Source of the DNA: Ananas comosus
Lineage: Eukaryota; Streptophyta; Magnoliopsida; Poales; Bromeliaceae
Direction: 5' to 3'
Assembly: GCF_001540865.1 (NCBI RefSeq)
Contig: NC_033640.1
Location: 283,174-347,173, forward strand
DNA length: 64,000 nucleotides
The position numbers were made by a program, and so were the translations under genes. How positions within the stretch are numbered: the first letter of the stretch is position 1; the number at the start of each line of letters is the position of its first letter. Below are positions 8,068-61,065 of this stretch, piece by piece. The notes under the pieces are model-generated. The model ran no database searches. It was not told the DNA's origin and saw only the letters and a program-made list of their open reading frames with translations.

Positions 8068-8656
8068 TAGAGATGCAAACGGATCCGGTTTGGTGGAGCT
8101 CCCTCCCCGATCCGCCCCAACGGGGGCAGTAAATGGGAGAAAATAAACGGATTCGGGGTAGGAAACGGGATAAGTTTTACGATTCGAGAGGGATTTGGGG
8201 CAGGAAACGGAAAAAAGTTTGACCCGCCCTGAATCCGTCCCGAATTCGNTAAAAAATATTTCTAAAAAATAATATATTTACAAAAAAGTTCAAAATACAA
8301 ATAAATTAGTACTCTCATTTCTACTATATTTGAAACGTTTGAATTTTGTTTTGAATTGTGATTGATATTTTTTTATTTCTATAATTAATATTATTAAATT
8401 ATATATATAATATTATTAAAAATTATTAATTTATATTTTATAAAATATTAATAATATTATAATTTTATAAAAAATATTAGTTGGTGGGGCGGATTCGGGG
8501 CGCCGGCGGGGGGCGGGTTACGAAGCGTGGTGGATTATGGGATGTATTTTTTAACCCGTCACGGATTCGGGGCGGAAGGCGGGGCAGATTTTTGCTAGTC
8601 GGGGTGGGAGGCGGGGCGGGTCTCCCGCCCCCAGATCCGCCCCGTTTGCATCCCTA
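8068..8656. mobile_element. Non-autonomous hAT-like element with 8-bp target duplication
   Basis: The ends are inverted: TAGAGATGCAAACGG at 8068 and GTTTGCATCCCTA ending at 8656. The flanks are an 8-bp direct repeat with one mismatch, TCTACAAC (8060-8067) and TCTACAGC (8657-8664). An 8-bp duplication with TAGRG-type termini is the hAT pattern. The ends are GC-rich, the centre is AT-rich, there is no transposase ORF, and N at 8249 is unresolved. It interrupts an older LTR-like repeat. Confidence 0.75.
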
Positions 8657-15603: not shown

Positions 15604-17064
15604 TTAGTAGGTGTCGAACATTGGCTCCGCGACCTGACCGGCGGCGGGTTCTGCCACCTTCCACACCTTGACGGACTTGTCCAGACTTCCGCTGTACACC
15701 ACCCACCGCCTACGCGCTCCACCGCAGTCTTCCTCGCCTTCTTTCCCGTCGGCGGCGTCCGCCTGCACTGCCAGGCACTTCACGGGGCCGGTGTGCGCCG
15801 TCAGCACGGAGAGGCACGAATGCGCTCCGGTCTCCTCCTCTCTTCGCCACACGCATATCGTCTTGTCCGCGGACCCGCTGAACAGCAGATTGCTGCCTGC
15901 TCCTGCTGCTGCCAGGCACAAGACTGCCGCCGCGTGCCCGCGGAGCGTCCCGCAGTGCTCCAGCCTCCTCCCCCAGTCCCAGCAGTTCACGACCCCGTCC
16001 GACGACCCCGCGTACACGACGCCTGCGTCGACGTTGATCGACAACGCCGTCACCGCGCTGTCCTGCTTCATCAGCGTCTTCTCCGCCGCGTGACCGGTCA
16101 CGCTCTCCTTCTTCGCCGTCGTCGTCTCTCGCCGCCAAACTTTGACGGTCCCGTCCGCAGAGCCCGAGAAGACGAGGCCCTTGAACGCGGCGACCACCGC
16201 GTTGACGGCGTCGTCATGGGCGTCGATCGAGTCGACGCACTGCGAGTCGGCGATCCGCCATGCCTTGATCGTCCGGTCCCACGAGCCGGAGTAGAGCAGG
16301 GACTCGTCCTCGCTGAGGCAGAGGCAGGAGACGGCGTCCGTGTGGCGAATCCGAACAGCGCCGCCTCGGCGGCGGCGCCGAGCGGCGGACGGGTGGAATG
16401 AGGCCTTCAGCAGGTCCTTGAGGCGGGGAAGGGTGGAGACGCGCTTGTGCGTCGCGGGGTCCTTCGGCGACGGCGCCCACACGCGGATTTTCCCGTCCTG
16501 GTGGCCGGAGAACACGCGGTGACCGTTGGCCGAGAGGACGATCGCCTTCACGAGGCCGCTGCTGGACTTGAAGCCGGAGAATTCGCGCCGGTCGCGCCAC
16601 ACGCGTATGTTCTTGCTGTCGGAGCCGGTGTAGAGAAGGCCCCGCGCGCCCGCCGCGAGAGAGTAGATGTGGCCCTCCTCTCGAACTAAGGAGCCGACGA
16701 GGCCGGTGCCCGACGGGAAGAGATCGGCGGTGGCGGTGGCGGTGTTGGCGGATTGCTCGTGGTGGTGCCAGGGGGAGGAGCTGAAGGGCGAGGAGGCGGC
16801 GGAGTGCTGGGTGTTGCTGCTGGCGGCGGAGGAGGTGGTGCGGTCGGAAAGGTAGCCGCCGGGGCTGGTGGCAGCGGAGGCGCTGCTGTGGCGGGACGTC
16901 GAAACGAAGTCCTCGTCGCTCGTCGACTTGATCAGGGGGTCCGAGTGCGTCAGCGCGGAGTATTTCGTCCCCGGTATCGGCAGCCCGACGGCCGCGTCCG
17001 TGAACAGCGGCCGGCCGCGGCGGCTGCCGTCTTCGCGGCCGCCGATGCTGCTTCTTTCTCTCAT
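15604..17064 (-). CDS. JGB: JINGUBANG-like WD40 repeat protein
   Basis: A single uninterrupted ORF of 486 residues, GC-rich, starting at the ATG at 17064. Residues 1 to about 115 are Ser/Thr/Arg-rich and probably disordered. From about 125 to 475 there are WD40 blades with recognisable ends: IRVWRDR, IRVWAPS, IKAWRIA, VKVWRRE, VNCWDWG, ICVWRRE and VKVWKVA, several preceded by SGSxDGT or SGSxDKT loops. Seven blades make a closed propeller. The layout (disordered head, seven blades, intronless) matches Arabidopsis JINGUBANG, a negative regulator of pollen germination that binds TCP4. That role is known for the family and only inferred here. The long opposite-strand frames over this locus are shadows caused by high GC. 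Confidence 0.93.
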   Translation of the reverse strand: MRERSSIGGREDGSRRGRPLFTDAAVGLPIPGTKYSALTHSDPLIKSTSDEDFVSTSRHSSASAATSPGGYLSDRTTSSAASSNTQHSAASSPFSSSPWHHHEQSANTATATADLFPSGTGLVGSLVREEGHIYSLAAGARGLLYTGSDSKNIRVWRDRREFSGFKSSSGLVKAIVLSANGHRVFSGHQDGKIRVWAPSPKDPATHKRVSTLPRLKDLLKASFHPSAARRRRRGGAVRIRHTDAVSCLCLSEDESLLYSGSWDRTIKAWRIADSQCVDSIDAHDDAVNAVVAAFKGLVFSGSADGTVKVWRRETTTAKKESVTGHAAEKTLMKQDSAVTALSINVDAGVVYAGSSDGVVNCWDWGRRLEHCGTLRGHAAAVLCLAAAGAGSNLLFSGSADKTICVWRREEETGAHSCLSVLTAHTGPVKCLAVQADAADGKEGEEDCGGARRRWVVYSGSLDKSVKVWKVAEPAAGQVAEPMFDTY

Positions 17065-25752: not shown

Positions 25753-26104
25753 GGGAAACCATTTCAAAAACCATCCCCCTGTAGTTTCTGCATTCTTGAT
25801 TTGCCTACCGCTGTGGTTGAACGTATCATTTTATCTCGCTGTGTTCATTTTTATTTCTTATTCGAGCTTTCGTTAATAGTTCGTTTAAATTATATACAAA
25901 ATAACTTCAGAAACCATCTTATTATCTTATCGAATCATCCTTATAACCTTTAATTTAAACTTTGTCACCGATTTTTAAAAATAATATAAAAGATAAAAAA
26001 GATAAAAACTAAAGTCCACAGGCGTGGGCAAATGATAGTTTTATAACACATAAAAAAAAAAAAATGAAATGCAATTGAAACGCAAGGGGTTTTGAAGTTT
26101 CCCC
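25753..26104. repeat. MITE (family E, copy 1)
   Basis: The left end GGGAAACCATTTCAAAAACC and right end GGGGTTTTGAAGTTTCCCC are inverted. The interior holds 'cgttaatagttcg' and 'aattatatacaaaataa' blocks shared with the copies at 37626, 58063 and 60137. Confidence 0.6.
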
Positions 26105-31499: not shown

Positions 31500-31697
31500 A
31501 CAAACGAATCATCACCGACCGTCCCTAGAGCAACTGAGCAAATGACAAAGGACTTGGTGATTGATACCCGAGACCCAAGTTCGAATCCTAGTTGATTCAC
31601 ATTTCCAGCTAAGTTTATTTCTAAATGAAATAAACGAAGCGGGTAGCGTGCTACCTATCTCTCAAAAAAAAAAGAAAAGAAAAAACAAACGAATCAT
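31500..31697 (+). mobile_element. tRNA-derived SINE with perfect 13-bp target duplication
   Basis: The body at 31513-31684 is flanked by identical 13-mers ACAAACGAATCAT at 31500-31512 and 31685-31697. Inside, GTTCGAATCC (31579-31588) is a canonical RNA polymerase III B-box. An A-box-like region (AAATGACAAAGGACTTGG) lies ~40 bases before it. It ends in an A-rich tail with a few G (31661-31684). Confidence 0.85.
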
Positions 31698-31915
31698 TGT
31701 ACTAATCAAAAGGTACATTGTTACGTGTCATACCTCGTATTTAAAGAGTTGCCATCTTTTTCTTTGTTAGCGATATATCAGTATTTGTCGTTTAATACAT
31801 TGGTTCGTAAACGAATAATCACCGTACTTACCAAAAGGCAAACTATTACAGATGCCATACGTGGCATTCAAATAATCATCATCTTTTTCTCCATCACTTA
31901 TCTATATTTGTCGTT
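31690..31915. repeat. Old tandem duplication of ~115 bp
   Basis: 31690-31795 and 31809-31915 share the order 'acgaat', 'caaaagg', 'gccat', 'catctttttc', 'atttgtcgtt'. The SINE inserted in the first copy. Divergence is high. Confidence 0.5.
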
Positions 31916-31980
31916 AATTAGCGTATAGTACGTGAGATTTATTTCGTGTAAGATTATTCAACACTCACACTCCCAAGTAC

Positions 31981-32287
31981 AAGTACGAGTTGAAATAAAT
32001 GATTCTTAACTTCTCTTTTCGTATATAATGATTTGTTTTGAATGTTATTGAGCTACTCCAACCTTCTAAGCTCTAATTTAGAGATTCATGAAATTATTTG
32101 TGAAAAAGATAAAAAATTAAGCTACAAAGAATTCTATCAAACATGTTTTATAGTAAGTAATATTTGACGATGATTAGGGAAGCATGTAAGTCGATAAAAT
32201 TTTTTCTCTTTTTTCTCTGTTTGAGCCTTCGACTTCTCAGATAATAATAACAATAATAATAAGGTTTCATAATTGTATGAACTTCTC
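31981..32287 (+). repeat. Tandem repeat R, copy 1 (uninterrupted)
   Basis: The unit runs from AAGTACGAGTTGAAATAAAT through 'gctacaaagaattctatcaaac' and an (AAT)n tract to 'ggtttcataattgtatgaacttctc'. Two further copies follow, both interrupted by transposons. This copy shows the empty sites. Confidence 0.8.
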
Positions 32288-32435
32288 AAGTACGAGTTGA
32301 AATAAATGACCTTTAATTTTTTTTTCGTATATAATAGTTTGTTTTGAATGCTATTGAGCTACTCCAACCTTTATAAGCTCTAATTTAGAGATCCACGAAA
32401 TTATTTGTGAAAAAGATAAAAAAATAAGCTACAAA

Positions 32436-32935
32436 CACTACAATAGAAACGATGTATAATAATATTTTTAAATATCGGTACAGATTAAAAAAGTGTTACT
32501 GGCTAAATTACCGATATTTTTTAAAAGTATTGCTATATGTGGGTAGCTATATATAGGGCCGCTTTGATGTTTGGTATTCATTTCTCTAGCGACCTGTGGC
32601 AGAGTGACACGTGACGATCGTAATCCTCTATAGTCCATGCGAGATCCTTGCAGCCGAACTCCAGCTGTAATTGGAACCCTTCATCGTCGGCTGCGGCGGC
32701 AGAGGAGGAGAAAGGAAGATGATGATCATTTTTTTTTTCTTTTCTATTTGTAATCAGGCCGAGTGGGCTGGATGAGATTGGTTGAGTAGAGAAACTTTTT
32801 ATTTTTGTTTGGATTGGGCTTTATATTTATGTCTTAGTAGATTTTTTTTAAATTTTTTGGCATAAATCGGATACTTTTGACACTTATACAAAAATATCCA
32901 AAAAATATGTTTCTATATCTAATTCTATTGTAGTG
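32436..32935. mobile_element. Non-autonomous CACTA element
   Basis: The terminal inverted repeats are a perfect 13 bp, CACTACAATAGAA at both ends. The 3-bp target duplication is AAA (32433-32435, 32936-32938). The uninterrupted site, CTACAAAGAATT, is present in R copy 1 at about 32124 and R copy 3 at about 37399. The 500-bp interior has no transposase. Confidence 0.88.
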
Positions 32936-33106
32936 AAAGAATTTTATCAAACATGTTTCACCACAAAACCCATTTATTGCCGTCAGATATCACAAGTATT
33001 GGTTCGAGATTCGTAGTAAGTAATATTTGACAATGATTAAGGAAGCATGTAAGTCGATAAAATTTTTTTCTTTGTTTAAGCCTCTGACTTCTCAGAATAA
33101 TAATAA

Positions 33107-34303
33107 CTAGTGTAGCAGCCCACACGTTGCGGCGGGTAGATATTACTAAAATAAATTTAATATCTAACTAATATATCAAAAGTTTGCTATTATTTTAAAA
33201 ATCAAAATAGTCTAAATATATTGGCTTTTTTGCAAAAATATATTAATTTGTTGAAGCAGATTAGTAACAAAATGCCCATAAAAAGATAATAAGTATGTCA
33301 ACCTATTGAGCCGAAAAGCGACATACTATTTGGGAGAGATTTAGATAAAAAATTCAATAAAAATTAACATTTTATAAATCAAATCAAAACAATCAAAGGG
33401 TTAAATTTTTTTGTATAAGTTATATATTTATCTCTTCATTTTCTAAATAAGGTATGATACTTATCTCTTCAAGAAAATGAAGACTGTTTAAATCATATAT
33501 CAATCTAATTTTGTAAATATTTTTATATTAGTTAATAAAAAGAGTCGTGGAAGTAAAAAAGCATATGAAAAGTTATATACTAAATATTTAAGAGACAAAA
33601 AGATATACAACCTAACACAATCTAATACAGCAAATATAATACAAAATTTTACTTTCGAAAAAAAATATAAAGAACAAAGGATAGAAAAAAAAAGTAATAA
33701 ATCTTTAACACAACAAATATATCGGGTCGAATACCATGCAAATAAAAAAAAACTTGAAAAAACTAAATAAAGTTATCTAAGAAATTTCAGCGCTACAATA
33801 TAAAGAATATATAAATCTTTTAAAAGAACTCCTGAAATTTGAAGAAATGCTCGATTTGATGAAGATGACAGCGCCAAGCTCGGTGATGCAGCGTGCAAAC
33901 TCATACTCCGTCCATAGAACGTGCTCGATCTTGGCCTCGGAGCTCATGGAGGAGGAAGAGAAAGTAGAGAAGGAGAGAAGAGGGCTTTTCATGAGTTTCT
34001 ACGATTTACGGTTTAGATTAAGGTTAAAATGCGTGGACCATTAATTAGACGTTATGTGCGGAGAAAAGACGAAGGGTTGGGTTAAGGTGGGTGGACCATT
34101 AATTAGACGTTATGGGTGGAGGGAAGCGAAGACATTATGGGTGGAGAGAAAGCGAAGAGTTGGGTTAAGGTGGGTGAACTATTAATTAAACGTTATGAGT
34201 GGGGGAAGGCGAAGGGTTGGTTTCGCAATGTGAAACCTAAAACTAAAGGAAACACAGCCACATGGCATTTTTTTGAGGATTAATGTATAAGTATAGGTAT
34301 AGA
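33107..34303 (-). mobile_element. Non-autonomous Helitron 1
   Basis: On the minus strand it starts TCTATACCTATACTTATAC at 34303 and ends CTAG at 33107. About 10 bases before the end is a hairpin (CCCGC...GTGGG). It inserted between host A and T in the (AAT)n tract of repeat R copy 2. It contains three to four ~60-bp tandem units (34016-34220, 'ggaccattaattagacgttatg'). A 71-codon minus-strand frame (33777-33992) could be a captured gene fragment, but I do not recognise it. Confidence 0.82.
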
Positions 34304-34469
34304 TAATAATAATAAATAAAAATAAGGGTACATAATTTTATGGACTTTCCAAGTACGAGCTGAAATAAATGACCCTTAACTTCTCTTCTCGTATAAAATA
34401 GTTTGTTTTGAATGCTATCGGGCTACTCCAACCTTTAGGGATCCATGAAATTATTTGTGAAAAAAAAAA

Positions 34470-37384
34470 GGCCAATTTGCATAAAAAATCTATTAGTTTT
34501 GAGTTTTTGCAAAAGTAAGCCGTCTTTTTGAATTTTGCAGATTCGGGCCGAACTTTTAGAAGAATGACAAACTACCCCTCTTTCAAAATACATAAAAATT
34601 ATATGCTTTAAATGTCTAGAAAAATACAAGTGCTAAGCCATTGAGTGTAAAATTTTTTGAAAATGATAATTCCTAAGGCATAACTATATGTACTTTTCTC
34701 GTGAAACGAGAAATCTCATTCAAAACAAAATAAAAAGAATAAAGAATAATTAATAAGATAAAAAAGTGCAACATCCTTTCAAATAGTGCAATATCTGTAT
34801 AAGTAGTGCAACATATGTATTATTAATACATATTTTTACATGATTTTTACACTAAATTACGTACAGTTTAGTATATTACTCGAAAATAATATAATATATT
34901 AAAACATACTATAAAAATTATACAATATATATACAAACAGTACATATTTTATACTATTTGTACAGATGTTTACACCATTTGTATAAACGTTGCATTATTA
35001 TGAGAGAATGTTGCACTATTTAGATGTGTATTGCACACTTTCTTTTTAAAAATTAAATTTTATTGCATATTAAATATAGTGTCAAATTTCTTTAAAATGA
35101 CAACTGGTAAGCCATAATTATATGTATCTTTCTCGTGAAACGAGAATCCTCATTCAAAACAAAATAAAAAGAATAAATAATAATAAATAAGATGAAAAAG
35201 TGCAGCATTCTCTCAAATAGTGCAAAGATACTCTTCCAAATAGTGCAATATCTTATAAGTAGTACAACATATGCATTGTTAATACACATTTTCATGATTT
35301 TTACACTAAATTATATACAGTTTAGTATATTACAAAAAAATAATATAATATACTACAATATATTATAAAAATTATACAACATATGTACAAACGGTGCATA
35401 TTTTATACTATTTGTATAGATATTTACACCATTTGTATAAACGTTGCATTATTATGAGAGAATGTTGCATCATTTAGATGTGTGTTGCACTCTTTCTTTT
35501 TAAAAATTAATTTTCATTGCATATTAAATAAAGTGTCAATTTTTTGGAAATGACAATTGCTTAGTCATAATTACATGTACCTTTCTCGTGAAACGAGAAA
35601 CCTCATTTAAGACAAAATAAAAAAAATAAAAAATAATTAATAAGAAGAAAGAGTGCAACATCCTCTCAAATAGTGTAACATGCGCTTCCAAATAGTGCAA
35701 CATCTGTATAATAGTGTAACATATGTATTATTAAGACACATTTTGCATGATTTTTACACTAAATTACGTACAGTTTAGTATATTACACAAAACTAATATA
35801 ATATATTATGCGTAATATAACTACATTTTGTAATATATTATATTATTTCTGCGTAATAAACTAAACTGCACGTAATTTTGTATAAAAATCATTCAAAATA
35901 TGTATTAACAATATATATGTTGCACTACTTATACAGATATTGCACTATTTGGAAGAGCATGCTGCACTATTTAATCTTATTAATTATTTTTTATTCTTTC
36001 TTTTTGTCTTGAATGAGAATTCTCGTTTCACGAGAATTGTACATTTAATTATGGCTTAGCAGTTGTCATTTTTAAAAATTTTGACACTTTATTTAATATT
36101 TAATAAATTTTTTTTTCAAAAAATGAGTACAATACACATCTAAATGGTGCAATATCCTCTCATAATAGTGCAATATTTACACAAATGGTATAAATATCTG
36201 TACAAATAGTGTAAAATATGCACCGTTTGTACATATATTGTATAATTTTTATAGTATGTTGTAATATATTATACTATTTTCGCGTAATATACAAAACTGT
36301 GCGTAATTTAGTGTAAAAATCATGCAAAATGTGTATTAATAATATATATGTTGCACTACTTATGCGGATATTACATTATTTGGAAGAGCATGTTGCACTA
36401 TTTGAAAGGATGTTGCGCTCTTTCATCTTATTAATTATTTTTTATTCTTTTTATTTTATCTTGAATGAGGTTTTTCGTTTTACAAGAAAGGTATATGTAA
36501 TTATGGCTTAACAGTTGTCATTTTTAAAAAATTTGGCACTTTATTTAATATGCAATGAAATTTAATTTTCAAAAAGAAAGAGTGCAATATACATCTAAAT
36601 GGTGCAACATCCTTTAATAATAGTGCAATATTTACACAAATGGTGTAAATATCTGTACGAATAGTATAAAATATGTACCGTTTATACATATATTGTATAA
36701 TTTTTATTGTATGTTGTAATATATTATATTAGTTTGCGCAATATATTAAACTGTACGTAATATATTGAAAAGTTCTCGACTTTTCGATTTACCCCTCTTA
36801 GAAGGCTAATATTGAAAATACCCTCTTTACGTTCCAACCTATTTCTAATATACCCCTAGAGTTAAAATCTGTTAATTAACTCTGTTAACTATGTAAAATT
36901 ACTATTTTGCCCTTTCAAATATATCCTTCCACCGTCAGTGACTTTTTTATTTGCCCTTAAAGTCTGGGGCACAAAAAGTATTTTGACTTTTGGTCTTTTC
37001 CAATATACCCATCTACCGTCACCAACATTTTTTATTTGCCTTTAAGTTAAGGGCAAAATTGACATTTTAATTTTTTTTAACTGTGGTAGATGTTTAATTC
37101 ACGTTTAACCCAAGTTAACTTAACAGGAGATAACTGCGAAGGTATTTTGCAATAACGGTGGAACATATGAGGGGTATTTTAGAAAGAAAAAAAAAAGTAG
37201 GGGTAAATCGGATATTTTCAAACGTATAAGGGGTATATAGGCAATTATTCCTAATTTTTATATATTTTGAAAGAGAGGTAGTTTGGTCATTCTTCTGAAA
37301 ATTCGGTCCGAATCTGTAAAATTCAAAAAGACGGTATATTTTTGCAAAAGCTGAAAACTAATAAATTTTTTATGTAAATTGGCC
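34470..37384. mobile_element. Large foldback (MULE-like) element with inverted tandem arrays
   Basis: The ends are inverted for at least 130 bp: GGCCAATTTGCATAAAAAAT at 34470, and the complement ending AATTGGCC at 37384. It is flanked by runs of nine to ten A, compatible with a 9-bp duplication as in Mutator-like elements. Inside, a ~440-bp unit appears three times forward (about 34640, 35095, 35550) and then at least twice inverted (about 35830-36740), turning at about 35810. Each unit has a small hairpin, TTCTCGTGAAACGAGAA (34696, 35132, 35584; inverted at about 36022), and many AATAGTGCAACAT-like words. No transposase ORF is present. Confidence 0.75.
36770..37250. repeat. Nested repeat in the right arm of the foldback element
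   Basis: This segment breaks the symmetry of the foldback. Its own ends are roughly inverted (CGATTTACCCCT near 36783; AGGGGTAAATCG near 37198), with 'ataccc' words following. It is probably a separate MITE inserted later. Confidence 0.5.
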
Positions 37385-37567
37385 AAAAAAAAATTAAACT
37401 ACAAAGAATTCTATCAAACAAGTTTCATCACGAAACCCATTTATATTGTCAGATATCGCAAGTATTGCTTCGAGATTCATAGTAAGTAATATTTGACGGT
37501 GATCAAGGAAGCATGTAAGTCGATAAATTTTTTTCTCTTTTTTCTCTGTTCAAATCTCCCACTTTTC

Positions 37568-37608
<41 letters not shown>

Positions 37609-37612
37609 GAAA

Positions 37613-38527
37613 TCTATAGTATATAGGGAAAACTTCAAAAACCCCTCGTAGTTTTGTAGTTTCTCATTTTGCCCCCCTGTAGTTTACAATGTATCAATTT
37701 GCCCCTCTGTGGTTTCTTTTTTCTCTTTTTCTTATCAATTTTATTATTTTTTTTCTTAAATCAGTGATAAAGTTAAAATTAAATGATACTAATGTGAATA
37801 TTTGATAAATCTAGATGGATATCTGAAGTTTTTTATATATAATTTAATAAAATATTAACGAAAAAGCTACTGAAAAGAAAAAACGAAACCACAGGGGGGC
37901 AATTTGATACATTTTAAACTATAGGGGGTAAAGTGAGAAACTATGAAACCACGGGGAGTTTTTTGAAGTTTTCCCCTTAATATATGATTAAAAAAATTTA
38001 TAATTTTTTTAATTCAATCTAAAATTTTATTTATTTTTATAAAAATTTAAAATATATAAATAATTTTTAAATAAGTTAAATTACTTGTATTAAATATAAA
38101 TTTGAATTAAACTGAATAAAAGAATTATTAAAAATATATAAAAACTAAGGAAGGAAATTTAAAAATGAAACATAAAAAAATAAAAAAAATAAAAATAAAT
38201 AAGGATAAGATAAATAAAAGAAGAATAGAGGCAAAAATGTAAGAACAATAAATTATTTTTTCTAAAAATTATATATAATTATAATAATAATTATAATATA
38301 TATAATTATAAATATAATTATATATAATTTCTTATTAGTATGATTTTTGCCTTTATTTTTTTAATATTCTTTATAATTTATTTTTATATTTTTATTACAG
38401 CAATATTTGTTTATTTTTTAGTTATTTTTTTATATCATTTTTTGACTTTTTTTTTACTATTATTTATTTTATTTATATATTTATTTTTACACAATTATTT
38501 CGCTGCAACACGCTAGTCCTTCACTAG
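37613..38527 (+). mobile_element. Non-autonomous Helitron 2
   Basis: It starts TCTATAGTATATAGGG at 37613 and ends CTAG at 38524-38527. The element sits between host A (37612) and T (38528) in the (AAT)n tract of R copy 3. A Helitron-like end, CGCTGCAACACGC, precedes the terminus, though its hairpin is weak. It carries a family E MITE at 37626-37976; the rest is extremely AT-rich. Confidence 0.65.
37626..37976. repeat. MITE (family E, copy 2)
   Basis: The ends GGGAAAACTTCAAAAACCCC and GAGTTTTTTGAAGTTTTCCCC are inverted and continue as ~60 bp of imperfect complementarity ('ttgcccccctgtagttt' / 'actatagggggtaaa'). It is nested in Helitron 2. Confidence 0.7.
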
Positions 38528-38657
38528 TAAATAATAAAAACACAAGGTTTCATAATTTTATGGGCTTCTCAGCAGAGCCCACTTTGGCCCACAAACCATA
38601 TTTGAGGAGAGAGAAAGAGCTTAGAGAGAGAGAGAGAGAGAGCTGTGTTGCTCTCCC

Positions 38658-40969
38658 ATGTATCGTTGCTATCGTGCGCTTGTGCCCAGGGGGCGCACGC
38701 TAGCGACCCGACGCTTTCTCTCCGACTCACTGGAATTAGGGTTAGGGTTTCCGAAGCCGAGCCTCCCCGGGATCGAGCCCTCCCCCGGCGCCGACACGCT
38801 CGCGGCGCTCCTCCTCCGGCACCACAACCCCTTCCACCCGCTCGAGTCCCCGCTCGAGCTCGTCGCCCTCGGCGGCGGCGCCGCCCTCTCCCCCGCCCTC
38901 GTCGTCCAGACCCTCCTCCGCCTCCGCCACGCCTCCAAGGTCGCCCTCGCCTTCTTCGTCTCCGTCCGCGACCACGTCCACCACCACCGTTGCAATGGCG
39001 GCGCCCAACCCCTCCTCGGCCCCGCCGCGTACGACGCCATGGTCGACATCCTCGGCCGCGTGCGCCAGTTCGACGTCGCGTGGCAGCTCATCGTCGAGAT
39101 GGGCTGCGGCGGCGGCGGCGGCGGCGGCGGCGATGTGGGGCCCACGCCGAGGACGTTCGCGGTGCTGGTGAGGAGGTACGTGGCGGCGGGGATGACGCGG
39201 CAGGCGATCCGGTCCTTCGACGACATGGAGGCGTTCGTCGGGAGGGAGCCGGGCTCGGCGGAGTTCCAGATGCTTCTGGACACCCTCTGCAAGTATGGGC
39301 ACGCAAAGGTATCGCCTTTATTGCGAACTTTTCCTTTTCCTTTTCCCATGGCTCTATTGATTAGCTCTTCTGATACAATTGCTTCCTTACTTGCTTTGTA
39401 ACAGGGAGTTTTATTTGATTAGATTTGTTTGATTTTGGGATGCTCCATTTCTTTATAAATGTTGATTATAATGCATGGTTATACTGGTGAATGAGAAGTT
39501 TGCAATTTCGCGACGGCGAATAGTGTAAAATTCATTTTTTGTGGCAATTTGTGTGTACTGTTTGTTTTATATGTCTTTGTTAGATTGGTGATATAGATTA
39601 CAGTCACTCAGGTTTTGCATGGGAAATCATTGTGGTGTTCATGAGTACTAATTCTTTTTTCAAATTTAAGAATCGAGCATTCCTCAAAAGTTTCGGAATT
39701 TGGATTGCACCACAGGTTGCACACTTCTTCTTTTTTTTTTATAGATTTAAGAGGCAACGACGGACTTTAAACTCAATAAACTGAGTTATCTTGAAGCTTT
39801 GCAAATCCGTTTACGGAGCACATGTTTTGCAGTAAGATGATTTTACCATCTCCAACACTTGTTCATCTAATTATGCTGAACGCTCTTACAGCGTTCGTTT
39901 CTTTTCCTTATTTTACATTATGAGTGAATGATTGGGTTATTCAGCTGATCTTGTTTCAATCCTGAGGTATTCACTGGTTGGAGTATTTTGATGATCATTG
40001 CAGGTTGCAACAGAGATATTCAACAAGAGAAAATCCAAGTACGAACCCGACGAGAAGACGTACTCGATCTTGATTTATGGATGGTGCAAGGTAAACCAGC
40101 TTGAAATGGCCCAAAAGTTCCTAAAAGAAATGACCGATCGTGGGGTAGAACCGAATATAGTTACATATAACATCCTGCTGAATGGGATTTGCAGGCACGC
40201 GAGCTTGCACCCGGAAAATCGCTTCGACAGAACAATCCGTGCTGCTGAGGACCTTTTGAAGGAAATGGGGTCTAGGGGGATTGAACCCGATGTGACGAGC
40301 TACTCTATCATTCTACATGTTTATAGCCGGGCCCACAAACCCGAGCTCTGTCTTCATATGTTCCGGTCAATGAGAGAGAAAGGCATTTGCCCCACTGTGG
40401 CGACGTACACCTCGGTAGTTAAATGTCTGGCTTCTTGTGGGAGATTAGAAGCTGCAGAAAAATTACTCGATGAAATGTCTAGCAATGGAGTGTGCCCATC
40501 CCCCGCCACTTATAATTGCTTCTTTAAGGAATATAGAGGGAGAAATGATTGGGAAGGCGCAATGAATTTGTACAAGAAAATGAAGGAATCGGGCTCGTTA
40601 AGCAAGCCCGATATTCACACGTACAATATATTACTTGGAATGTTCTCGAAGTTGGATCGATTAGGAACTGTTCGGGAATTGTGGAGTGATATGAGTGAGA
40701 GTGGTGTTGGGCCGGATTTGGATTCGTACACTTTGCTCATCCATGGGCTTTGCGAGAAGAATAAGTGGAGAGAAGCGTGCCAGTTCTTTATGGAGATGAT
40801 AGAGAAAGGGTTTCTCCCGCAGAAGGTTACATTCGAGACTCTTTATCGAGGATTGATTCAAGCTGATATGTTGAGGACTTGGAGGAGATTGAAGAAGAAG
40901 GTTGATGAAGAATCATTGAAATTTGGTGCTGAGTTTGAGCATTATCATTTTAAACCGTATAAGAGATGA
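38658..40969 (+). CDS. Pentatricopeptide repeat protein, P class, organelle-targeted
   Basis: PPR proteins bind organellar RNA in a sequence-specific way and act in its processing, stability or translation. Two exons, 38658-39308 and 40004-40969, join in phase 0 (AAG|GTATCG...TGCAG|GTTGC), giving 538 residues. The N-terminus (MYRCYRALVPRGRTLATRRF) is basic and Arg/Ser-rich, like a mitochondrial presequence. A run of eight Gly lies near residue 152-160. About eight to ten 35-residue motifs follow, clearest in exon 2: PDEKTYSILIYGWCK, PNIVTYNILLNGICR, PDVTSYSIILHVYSR, PTVATYTSVVKCL, PSPATYNCFFKEY, PDIHTYNILLGMF and PDLDSYTLLIHGL. There is no E, DYW or SMR domain. Exon 1 is far more GC-rich than exon 2, a monocot gradient. 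A (GA)n tract just before the ATG is in the leader. The specific orthologue and RNA target are not assigned. Confidence 0.93.
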
Positions 40970-58062: not shown

Positions 58063-58430
58063 GAGGGTAAACTTCAAATACCATCTCTATAATTTCGCAC
58101 TTTCTTATTTTACTACCGTATCATTTTACTACCCTATACCTTTTTAGTGTATCAAGTTAGTACCGGTGATTTCATTTTTCTCTTTTCGTCAGCTCCTCCG
58201 TTAATATTTTATTAAATTATATACAAAAAAGTTCAGATACTTCAACTAGATTTATCGAATATTCATTTTAATATCCTTTAGTTTTAACTTTGACACTGAT
58301 TTAATGAAAAAATTAGTGTAATGAATAATAATAAAAAGAAAAAATAAAACCATTGGGTACTAAACTAATATATGTTAAAACACATGGTACTAAAGTGAGA
58401 AAGTGTGAAAGCACAGGAATGATATTTAAA
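58063..58430. repeat. MITE (family E, copy 3)
   Basis: The left end GGGTAAACTTCAAATACCAT and shared interior ('cagctcctccgttaatatt', 'aaattatatacaaaa') match the copies at 25753 and 37626. The right end is degenerate. Confidence 0.6.
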
Positions 58431-59042: not shown

Positions 59043-61065
59043 TTATTTTTACTTTTTCCTTTTTTTTTTTTTTTTTTCTCTCTGGGGGCCCGAAAAAAAA
59101 GGGAGGGAGAGGGACGTTATAGACTAGGACCTAGGGAGTACTAGGACACGTGGCCAAGTCTGAATGGTCGGTGCCTTTGCGGAGCTTTGAATGTACCGTA
59201 GGGACACGATATGACGTAAGTAACCGTTGGGAGGTGGTCCTTCCGATGGCAAAATGCCTAATAGTCCCTGTACTACAAACAAATTCCAAAATGATTCCTG
59301 TAGTTTTCGCAGAAAAATAATACCATCCCTACACTATTTACAAATTACAACCCAATCCCTAACGGTGAAAAATATTAATCTTTCTATCAACTCACTAGTT
59401 TATATATATAAACATTATCAAAAGCTAAATAATATTATTAAAAAAGCTAATTTTAAAATTCGCATAATGCACTTCGTAAATTTGGTCACTGATTAATGAC
59501 TACGAATTGATTTTGCTCATATCGCTTTTAATACAAAAATAATTTGAAAATAAAAGTTTGGAAAAAAAAAAAGTGTGCAATGAGTATAGGGACTGAATTA
59601 GAACGACTGGTTATTAGAGGTACTACAATGCATTTGTTTCCCCTCTCCTTGTTCTTCCTGTGAATTGTTCACCACACGTGTGAGCTACTGAGGGCTCTCC
59701 AACCCAAAAGGCCGAGACACGTGTGACTACGCCAGCTGGCGCGTTTGACTTTGACCAACGGGGAGAGTGGATTTGAGCTTCAACATTTGGTCCTCTCCAA
59801 CAAATGGTGTTACGCCACGTGGTTTAGAGCGACGTGGCACGTGGTGATAGGTTGGCAACCGAGTTTGGTGTTGTGGCCCACAGAGCTCGACAAGAAGAGC
59901 CTCGATGTTCCCGCGGAGATGGTTGGTGGACGGTTCCTGCGCCGTTAATCGTACCGTTTCACGGCCACGATGTCTCGCTTCGCAGGAATCCGCCACGTGG
60001 CGCCACCGGACCCGTGTGATTGTCCCGTGGAAGTTTCTCGAAGCACCGGTTGAACCGGGTTTTGATTCAAATATTCGGTGTCTTAAAAAAATATATTTTT
60101 TTAACAGTTATGATACATATAAATATAATAATATATAGGATAAACTTCAAATACCATCCCTATAGTTTCACGTTTTCTTACTTTAGTATCCTCTGGTTTA
60201 AAATATATCGTACCCAATGGTTTTATTTTTCTTTTTTCGTCAGCTCCTGCGTTAATATTTGGTTAAATTATATATAAAAAAATTCACATACTCCACCTAA
60301 ATTTATTGGATATTCATTTTAGTACCCTTTAGGTTTAACTTTACCACTGATTTAACGAAAAAAATTAATACAATAAATAATAAAAAGAGAAAAATAAAAT
60401 CACATAATACTATATTAATATATGTTAAAACACATGGTACTAAAATGAGAGAGTGTGAAACAAAAGGGGTGATATTTGAAGTTTTTCCTAATAAATATAT
60501 GTATCATCAACACATTCTCTCTCTCTCAAAAAAAAAAAAAAAGAAAAAAAAAATAGATTAAAAAGTGCAATTAAAAGAATACACAAATGCAAGGGACTAT
60601 GCTTCTTATAATAATAATACTTCAACATTGAACTTGTCATGTAATTGAATCAAATTCTCTTCTTTCTCAAACATATACTTTTCATGTTCAAGCGCGCCCG
60701 TACAAGTGCGCGTAAACGACCTTCGTTCGATAAACGAGAATGAGGCTCAAAATGATCGCGACAATGCATAGTCCCGACATGATCAACGAACTCGCGAAGA
60801 AGCAAATGGCCCCCTCGCATTTCAGCGGCTCGTCGGCGAGGTAACTCCGAGGAACATGAGCTTGTTTCTCCGCTTCGTAGTCGTATATGCTGCTCGCTAT
60901 AAGACCGGAGAATATCAAAGAACCCGCGGGGTTGGCGATCGTGAGGAAATTGTATAATGCTCCGAAGTTTTTTAAGCCGAAGAGTTCGGAGGCGGCGGCG
61001 GGGACGATGGCCCAATGAGCACCGTAGCCGAGCCCAATAAGTAGCGTTCCTATGTACATTGTGCC
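59043..61065. repeat. 2-kb tandem duplication, unit 2
   Basis: The second unit continues without a break into the intact gene on the right. It carries its own G-box block (59675, 59718, 59816, 59838, 59994, plus 59147) and family E MITE (60137-60490). Confidence 0.85.
60137..60490. repeat. MITE (family E, copy 4)
   Basis: The left end GGATAAACTTCAAATACCAT and right end GATATTTGAAGTTTTTCC are inverted. It is the duplicate of copy 3. Confidence 0.6.

Follow-up and report, generated by a model that had tools for sequence, protein, structure and literature searches.

The 64,000-nt stretch of the Ananas comosus (pineapple) genome analysed here, referred to as the window (NC_033640.1; G000:C20:283174-347173 in our assembly numbering), carries three head-to-tail copies of a repeat, R (31979-38569), just upstream of a pentatricopeptide-repeat (PPR) gene on the plus strand (38658-40969). 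R1 is free of transposons, R2 holds a CACTA element and a Helitron (Hel1), and R3 holds a foldback element and a Helitron-like element (Hel2) with a miniature inverted-repeat transposable element (MITE) nested inside it (Table 1). The likely start of the PPR gene sits 88 nt past the end of R3, which places every insertion upstream of that gene. A triplication of R followed by independent insertions of different kinds of transposon almost certainly explains the locus. The elements are all of known kinds, and the foldback family, whose arms resemble a satellite array, is the novel part and deserves description.

Table 1 Features of the R array and of the elements inserted in it (window coordinates; TIR, terminal inverted repeat; K2P, Kimura two-parameter distance)
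Feature	Position	Strand	Description	Basis
R1	31979..32285	+	transposon-free, own ~53-nt internal deletion	alignment
R2 first segment	32286..32435	+	91% identity to R1 across 150 nt	
Non-autonomous CACTA	32436..32935	+	500 bp, 13-bp TIR, target duplication AAA (32433-32435 / 32936-32938)	
R2 second segment	32936..33106	+		alignment
Hel1, Helitron	33107..34303	-	1,197 bp, TC...CTAG, 3' hairpin; A|T site in AAT tract	
R2 third segment	34304..34348	+		alignment
R3 first segment	34349..34469	+	14-nt deletion	alignment
Foldback element	34470..37384		2,915 bp, GGCCAATTT TIRs, here between A10/A9	
Foldback left TIR	34470..34603	+	134 bp, 89% identical to right TIR, K2P 0.124	
Foldback opposed arms	34644..36771		~453-bp tandem units, palindrome centre near 35808	
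Imperfect palindromic insert	36785..37210		CGATTTACCCCT ends, in foldback right arm	
Foldback right TIR	37252..37384	-	inverted repeat of left TIR	
R3 second segment	37385..37612	+	long AAT tract at its end	alignment
Hel2, Helitron-like (putative)	37613..38527	+	915 bp, TC...CTAG, between A and T	
MITE	37626..37976		nested 13 nt inside Hel2 5' end; GGGAAAACTTCAAA-type ends	
R3 third segment	38528..38569	+	ends 88 nt before ATG at 38658	alignment

Excision of the insertions and the three R copies

Four intervals, those of the CACTA element, Hel1, the foldback element and Hel2 in Table 1, were excised with their ends set by terminal motifs. This leaves R1, R2 and R3 as stretches of 307, 366 and 391 nt that can be aligned end to end. 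The first-pass annotation had proposed three tandem copies bearing different insertions, with alignment after excision and recurrence of the element ends elsewhere as its checks; both came out in its favor, as the restored copies align and the ends of the CACTA, Hel1 and foldback families are found again across the genome. The observation of a triplicated R with stacked insertions is thereby confirmed. The element kinds assigned to copies 2 and 3, including the nesting of the MITE, were also borne out, less firmly for Hel2, while the description of copy 1 as intact was not, since R1 lacks ~53 nt that R2 and R3 both have. R3 in turn lacks 14 nt in the alignment. R1 and R3 lack the CACTA element and Hel1, and R1 and R2 lack the foldback element and Hel2, so the paralogous empty sites predicted within the window do exist by excision and alignment. 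With R triplicated, each of the four insertions can be set against an unoccupied site in the array, and the filled and unfilled copies together form a natural record of roughly where each element landed.

As a control, the joined 45-bp flanks of each excised interval were scored against the other R copies alongside 423-443 random excisions per comparison. The joined flanks of the CACTA element, Hel1 and the foldback element score 47-61, against random maxima of 23.5-29.5. For Hel2, the joined flanks score 38 against R2 (random maximum 24.5) and 25.5 against R1 (random maximum 22.5), where the single flanks alone reach 21.5 and 23.5. When the cuts were slid by up to 12 bases, the CACTA site alone was pinpointed: its best shift against R1 is (-3,0), i.e., a 3-bp duplication, and against R3 it is tied for best with two equivalents. 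At the Hel1, foldback and Hel2 sites, alternative cuts score somewhat higher than the motif-set cuts because the flanks are simple repeats, and the ends of these three elements therefore rest on their terminal motifs.

K2P distances are 0.102 for R1-R2, 0.140 for R1-R3 and 0.150 for R2-R3, and 22 positions unite R1 with R2 as compared to 12 and 14 for the alternative groupings. R1 and R2 are the closest pair, with R3 more distant. The first 150 nt of R gave three matches in the genome searched throughout this work (the A. comosus assembly, 382 Mb in 3,128 contigs; very common words are skipped by the search). All three are at the window locus, and R therefore looks like a local tandem duplication. 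Directly upstream of R1 (31500-31960), inspection by eye suggests two diverged tandem repeats that open with AAACGAATCAT-like sequence.

CACTA, Helitron and MITE insertions

The element in R2 with the best-defined site carries the terminal inverted repeats and 3-bp target duplication that place it in the CACTA superfamily. A genome search returned at least 41 matches (40 of 1,795 candidates scored) in which the same ends recur; most match rows cover nearly the whole query at 77-82% identity, and many of the genomic copies carry CACTACAACAAAA...TTCTGTTGTAGTG at their ends, exactly or with small differences. Of 30 loci, one of them the window copy, 14 have identical 3-bp flanks, as compared to a mean of 1.77 and a maximum of 7 when flanks were re-paired. 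The flanks of the remaining 16 loci differ, perhaps because the copies are old or their ends frayed. Plant non-autonomous CACTA elements have CACTACAACAAAA-type TIRs and 3-bp duplications as well, and nothing about the pineapple element is unusual.

Hel1 is a Helitron by its 5' TC, its 3' CTRR, the hairpin upstream of that end (folded for the window copy alone) and its insertion between A and T. At least 53 genomic matches were found (40 of 111 candidates scored), and the last base is reached in 24 of the 53 rows, counting that of the window itself. Ends were read in ten near-full-length copies chosen by hand. The 3' end is CTAG in nine and CTAA in one, hence CTRR in all ten, and T is the next base in every case. 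Six matches run from base 1 with TC, each of them preceded by A, two of these (C20, C3) adjoining TCTA-like repeats that blur the start; the other four begin at base 2-4, which leaves their exact start uncertain. These copies support insertion between A and T with no duplication, the absence of duplication having been judged by eye with no control, and at the window site itself the AAT repeat leaves this undecidable. TC...CTRR termini, a 3' hairpin and an A|T target are shared with plant non-autonomous Helitrons, and Hel1 is likewise not unusual.

The open frames of Hel1 are short. A GC-richer segment with an ATG frame (33780-33998, minus strand) looks like a captured 5' exon, and gene capture was rejected for lack of a homologue: a protein search with this frame returned one candidate and none at E ≤ 1, in a comparison with proteins of similar length only that would miss a full-length source, and both of its weak Pfam matches fall under their cut-offs. 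Hel1 also contains an 83-bp tandem repeat (34047-34214).

The element nested in Hel2 is short, has terminal inverted repeats and is multicopy, and is accordingly a MITE. Its relatives in the window lie at 60126-60490 (74%), 58121-58348 (79%) and 25820-26037 (71%), with 229-355 bp matched, and a short fourth match at 8385-8468 gave no convincing alignment. The flanks of the MITE are similar, not identical; the relative at 25.8-26.1 kb is flanked by T-tracts.

A foldback family with tandem-repeat arms

The element in R3 has the long TIRs with internally repetitive arms that define a foldback element. The first-pass annotation was right about its presence in copy 3 and too simple about its structure: the element also carries a palindromic insert, and its right arm is irregular, with the outermost part missing. 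Among the 36 foldback loci compared, the stretch around that insert (36772-37250) occurs in the window copy only.

A search with the foldback TIR gave at least 41 matches, the window's two ends included (40 of 1,020 candidates scored), and the same ends recur. In all 36 loci the ~453-bp unit is found inward of the TIR; several of these loci overlap, a single element being represented by both its ends or by a longer cut as well. The spacer between TIR and unit is mostly ~40 nt; the unit lies further in at L012, L020, L021 and the right end of the window copy. Summed unit length per locus ranges from 0.2 to 12.7 units across 24 loci (25 were entered, and L022 was dropped by the 76% identity filter), sums that are mostly incomplete because most loci are 3.1-kb cuts. 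Near-full units have a median identity of 0.928 within loci (116 pairs) and 0.893 between loci (1,060 pairs, highest 1.0). A search with the unit itself gave at least 359 matches, part of them listed (40 of 154 candidates scored); among the matches listed, arrays are short, with at most about a dozen units often set in opposed blocks, and no long free array of the unit was seen.

Six longer stretches between two TIRs were taken, and the five with both ends complete were compared for target duplications; L036, whose left match starts only at base 7, was set aside. Duplications of 9 bp were found in four of the five pairs, with 9/9 identical bases at L037 and L038 and 8/9 at L035 and L039, and the flanks of L034 agree at 5/9 with no 9-bp duplication. 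Nine bases is the usual target mark of Mutator-like elements (MULEs; PMC3169594), and by these genomic relatives the foldback family is Mutator-like. The A10/A9 flanks of the window copy are compatible with a 9-bp duplication and are no proof of one.

Foldback TIRs were also observed in outward-facing pairs ~9 and 45 bp apart (L005 1384-1635; G000:C5:6479636-6479917), an arrangement that suggests adjacent insertions.

Several known families share parts of this architecture. FARE of Arabidopsis (PMC4486113) and Tnr8 of rice are foldback elements that have been grouped with Mutator, and Tm1 of root-knot nematodes has composite TIRs, 9-bp target duplications and mostly non-autonomous forms (PMC3169594). 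Long or composite TIRs with internal repeats are common to all three and to the pineapple family, which differs in its ~453-bp unit and its outer 134-bp TIR starting GGCCAATTT; the nine frames tested revealed no transposase-bearing pineapple member. Galileo and Tetris of Drosophila have TIR arms built from ~210-220 bp tandem repeats in variable number (PMC3573991, PMC4079207), and in Galileo the repeat number differs between the two arms of one copy (PMC3573991). The pineapple elements resemble both in their tandem-repeat arms of variable number, and have 9-bp duplications. Free satellite arrays built of Tetris units exist as well (PMC4079207), whereas none were seen for pineapple among the matches listed. 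MuTAnT of Medicago and the pineapple Ac-mMITEs are Mutator-type foldback or MITE elements that, like the present family, favor AT-rich DNA in the form of AT repeats (PMC4486113, PMC8449440); they target (TA)n, while the foldback family is found at AT-rich sites generally.

The pineapple foldback family combines a tandem-repeat TIR architecture with 9-bp duplications in a plant. Searching the text of the open-licence literature for the 13 letters that open the foldback end yielded no paper, and no description of the family was found in that literature, where pineapple and foldback were not searched jointly. The family could be a plant Mutator-like lineage not described before, with arms made of expandable, satellite-like arrays of the ~453-bp unit, i.e., a plant counterpart of Galileo and Tetris whose arm length changes unit-wise and could seed satellite DNA, a proposal that we hold tentatively and rate as somewhat less than even. 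Satellites arising from transposons have been reviewed (PMC12628747), and the family offers a plant case in which to study how such repeats enter Mutator-type arms and become homogenized there, and whether the arms give rise to free satellite DNA. The rest of the locus is a good annotation example and holds no surprise.

Alternative explanations and the history of the locus

Two other accounts of the architecture were weighed. R might itself be a mobile or dispersed repeat, so that the insertions amount to nesting inside a transposon family, and three similar copies within a transposon-rich stretch are what such a repeat could look like. The copies stand head to tail, however, and the confinement of the first 150 nt of R to this one locus in 382 Mb leaves the idea unsupported and, in our estimate, highly improbable. 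The foldback element might likewise be two unrelated nested things, a Mutator-like element and a palindromic satellite inserted separately, as the TIR and the 453-bp arms differ in sequence and the right arm of the window copy is irregular. Against this, the unit lies inward of the TIR at 36 of 36 loci and the order of TIR, spacer and unit recurs, which contradicts such a nesting and makes it very unlikely.

The first-pass annotation also hinted that R or its A-rich and AAT tracts are preferred targets, which would make them a shared landing pad for several transposon classes. The two Helitrons did insert, in opposite orientations, into the AAT tract of their R copies, and the foldback element into an A-tract; elsewhere, the 10-bp flanks of foldback copies are 89% A+T (40 rows, about nine of which repeat an end already counted, with no background for comparison). 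The idea also has precedent, as Mutator-type MITEs that target microsatellites have been published for pineapple, where Ac-mMITEs target (TA)n (PMC8449440), AT-repeat targeting is described for MuTAnT (PMC4486113), and microsatellites as transposon landing pads have been reviewed (PMC12477314). Nonetheless, the AAT tract contains 9 of the 43 AT dinucleotides of R2 and 16 of the 48 of R3, so the naive chance of finding both Helitrons there is ~0.07, a figure calculated after the fact. The R3 tract may have grown after insertion. None of the ten other Hel1 copies read lies within AAT repeats, and one 9/9 foldback duplication elsewhere is TTAACTTAA, neither an A-tract nor an AAT repeat. A special pull of R as a target is not supported, and among candidate preferences nothing beyond AT-richness is; we consider the landing pad doubtful, if less so than the two accounts above.

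We return, then, to triplication followed by independent insertions. A promoter-proximal segment would have been tandemly triplicated to give R1-R3. The CACTA element and Hel1 would later have entered R2, and the Mutator-like foldback element and Hel2 would have entered R3, all independently, moving by cut-and-paste or rolling circle with enzymes probably encoded elsewhere. The MITE would then have inserted into Hel2 and the palindromic element into the foldback arm. The relative timing we infer thus puts R triplication first, with the MITE younger than Hel2 and the palindromic insert younger than the foldback element. Unequal exchange or slippage among 453-bp units could have lengthened the foldback arms. 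A TIR divergence of 0.124, near the distances between R copies, would make the foldback insertion old; the arms need not have been identical when it inserted.

Several observations weigh against this account or parts of it. The hairpin of Hel2 is not recognizable at the expected place before the 3' end, and with that and the weak excision test Hel2 is a putative Helitron, an assignment weaker than those of the other elements. Subtraction from R1 leaves ~5 extra A at the foldback site, not 9, which needs a change in tract length. At the window locus no target duplication can be read for Hel1, Hel2 or the foldback element, whose junctions are made ambiguous by the A10/A9 tract and the AAT repeat; the expectation that duplications could be read directly against empty sites therefore holds for the CACTA element and fails for the other three. 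In AT-rich DNA, wrongly paired foldback flanks agree by chance at 0-8 of 9 bases, and the 8/9 duplications are accordingly weak alone. No transposase domain was found in nine stop-free interior frames chosen from L034, L036, L037 and L038, and the one weak match among them (New_glue, E 0.0022) is under its cut-off; in these frames the search for an autonomous member thus gave none.

In the PPR gene downstream of the array, the frame at 39998-40969 encodes PPR repeats, and the frame from 38658 has one PPR match under its cut-off. Elsewhere in the window, 15604-17064 (minus strand) encodes a protein with 100% identity to one from Ananas comosus var. bracteatus.
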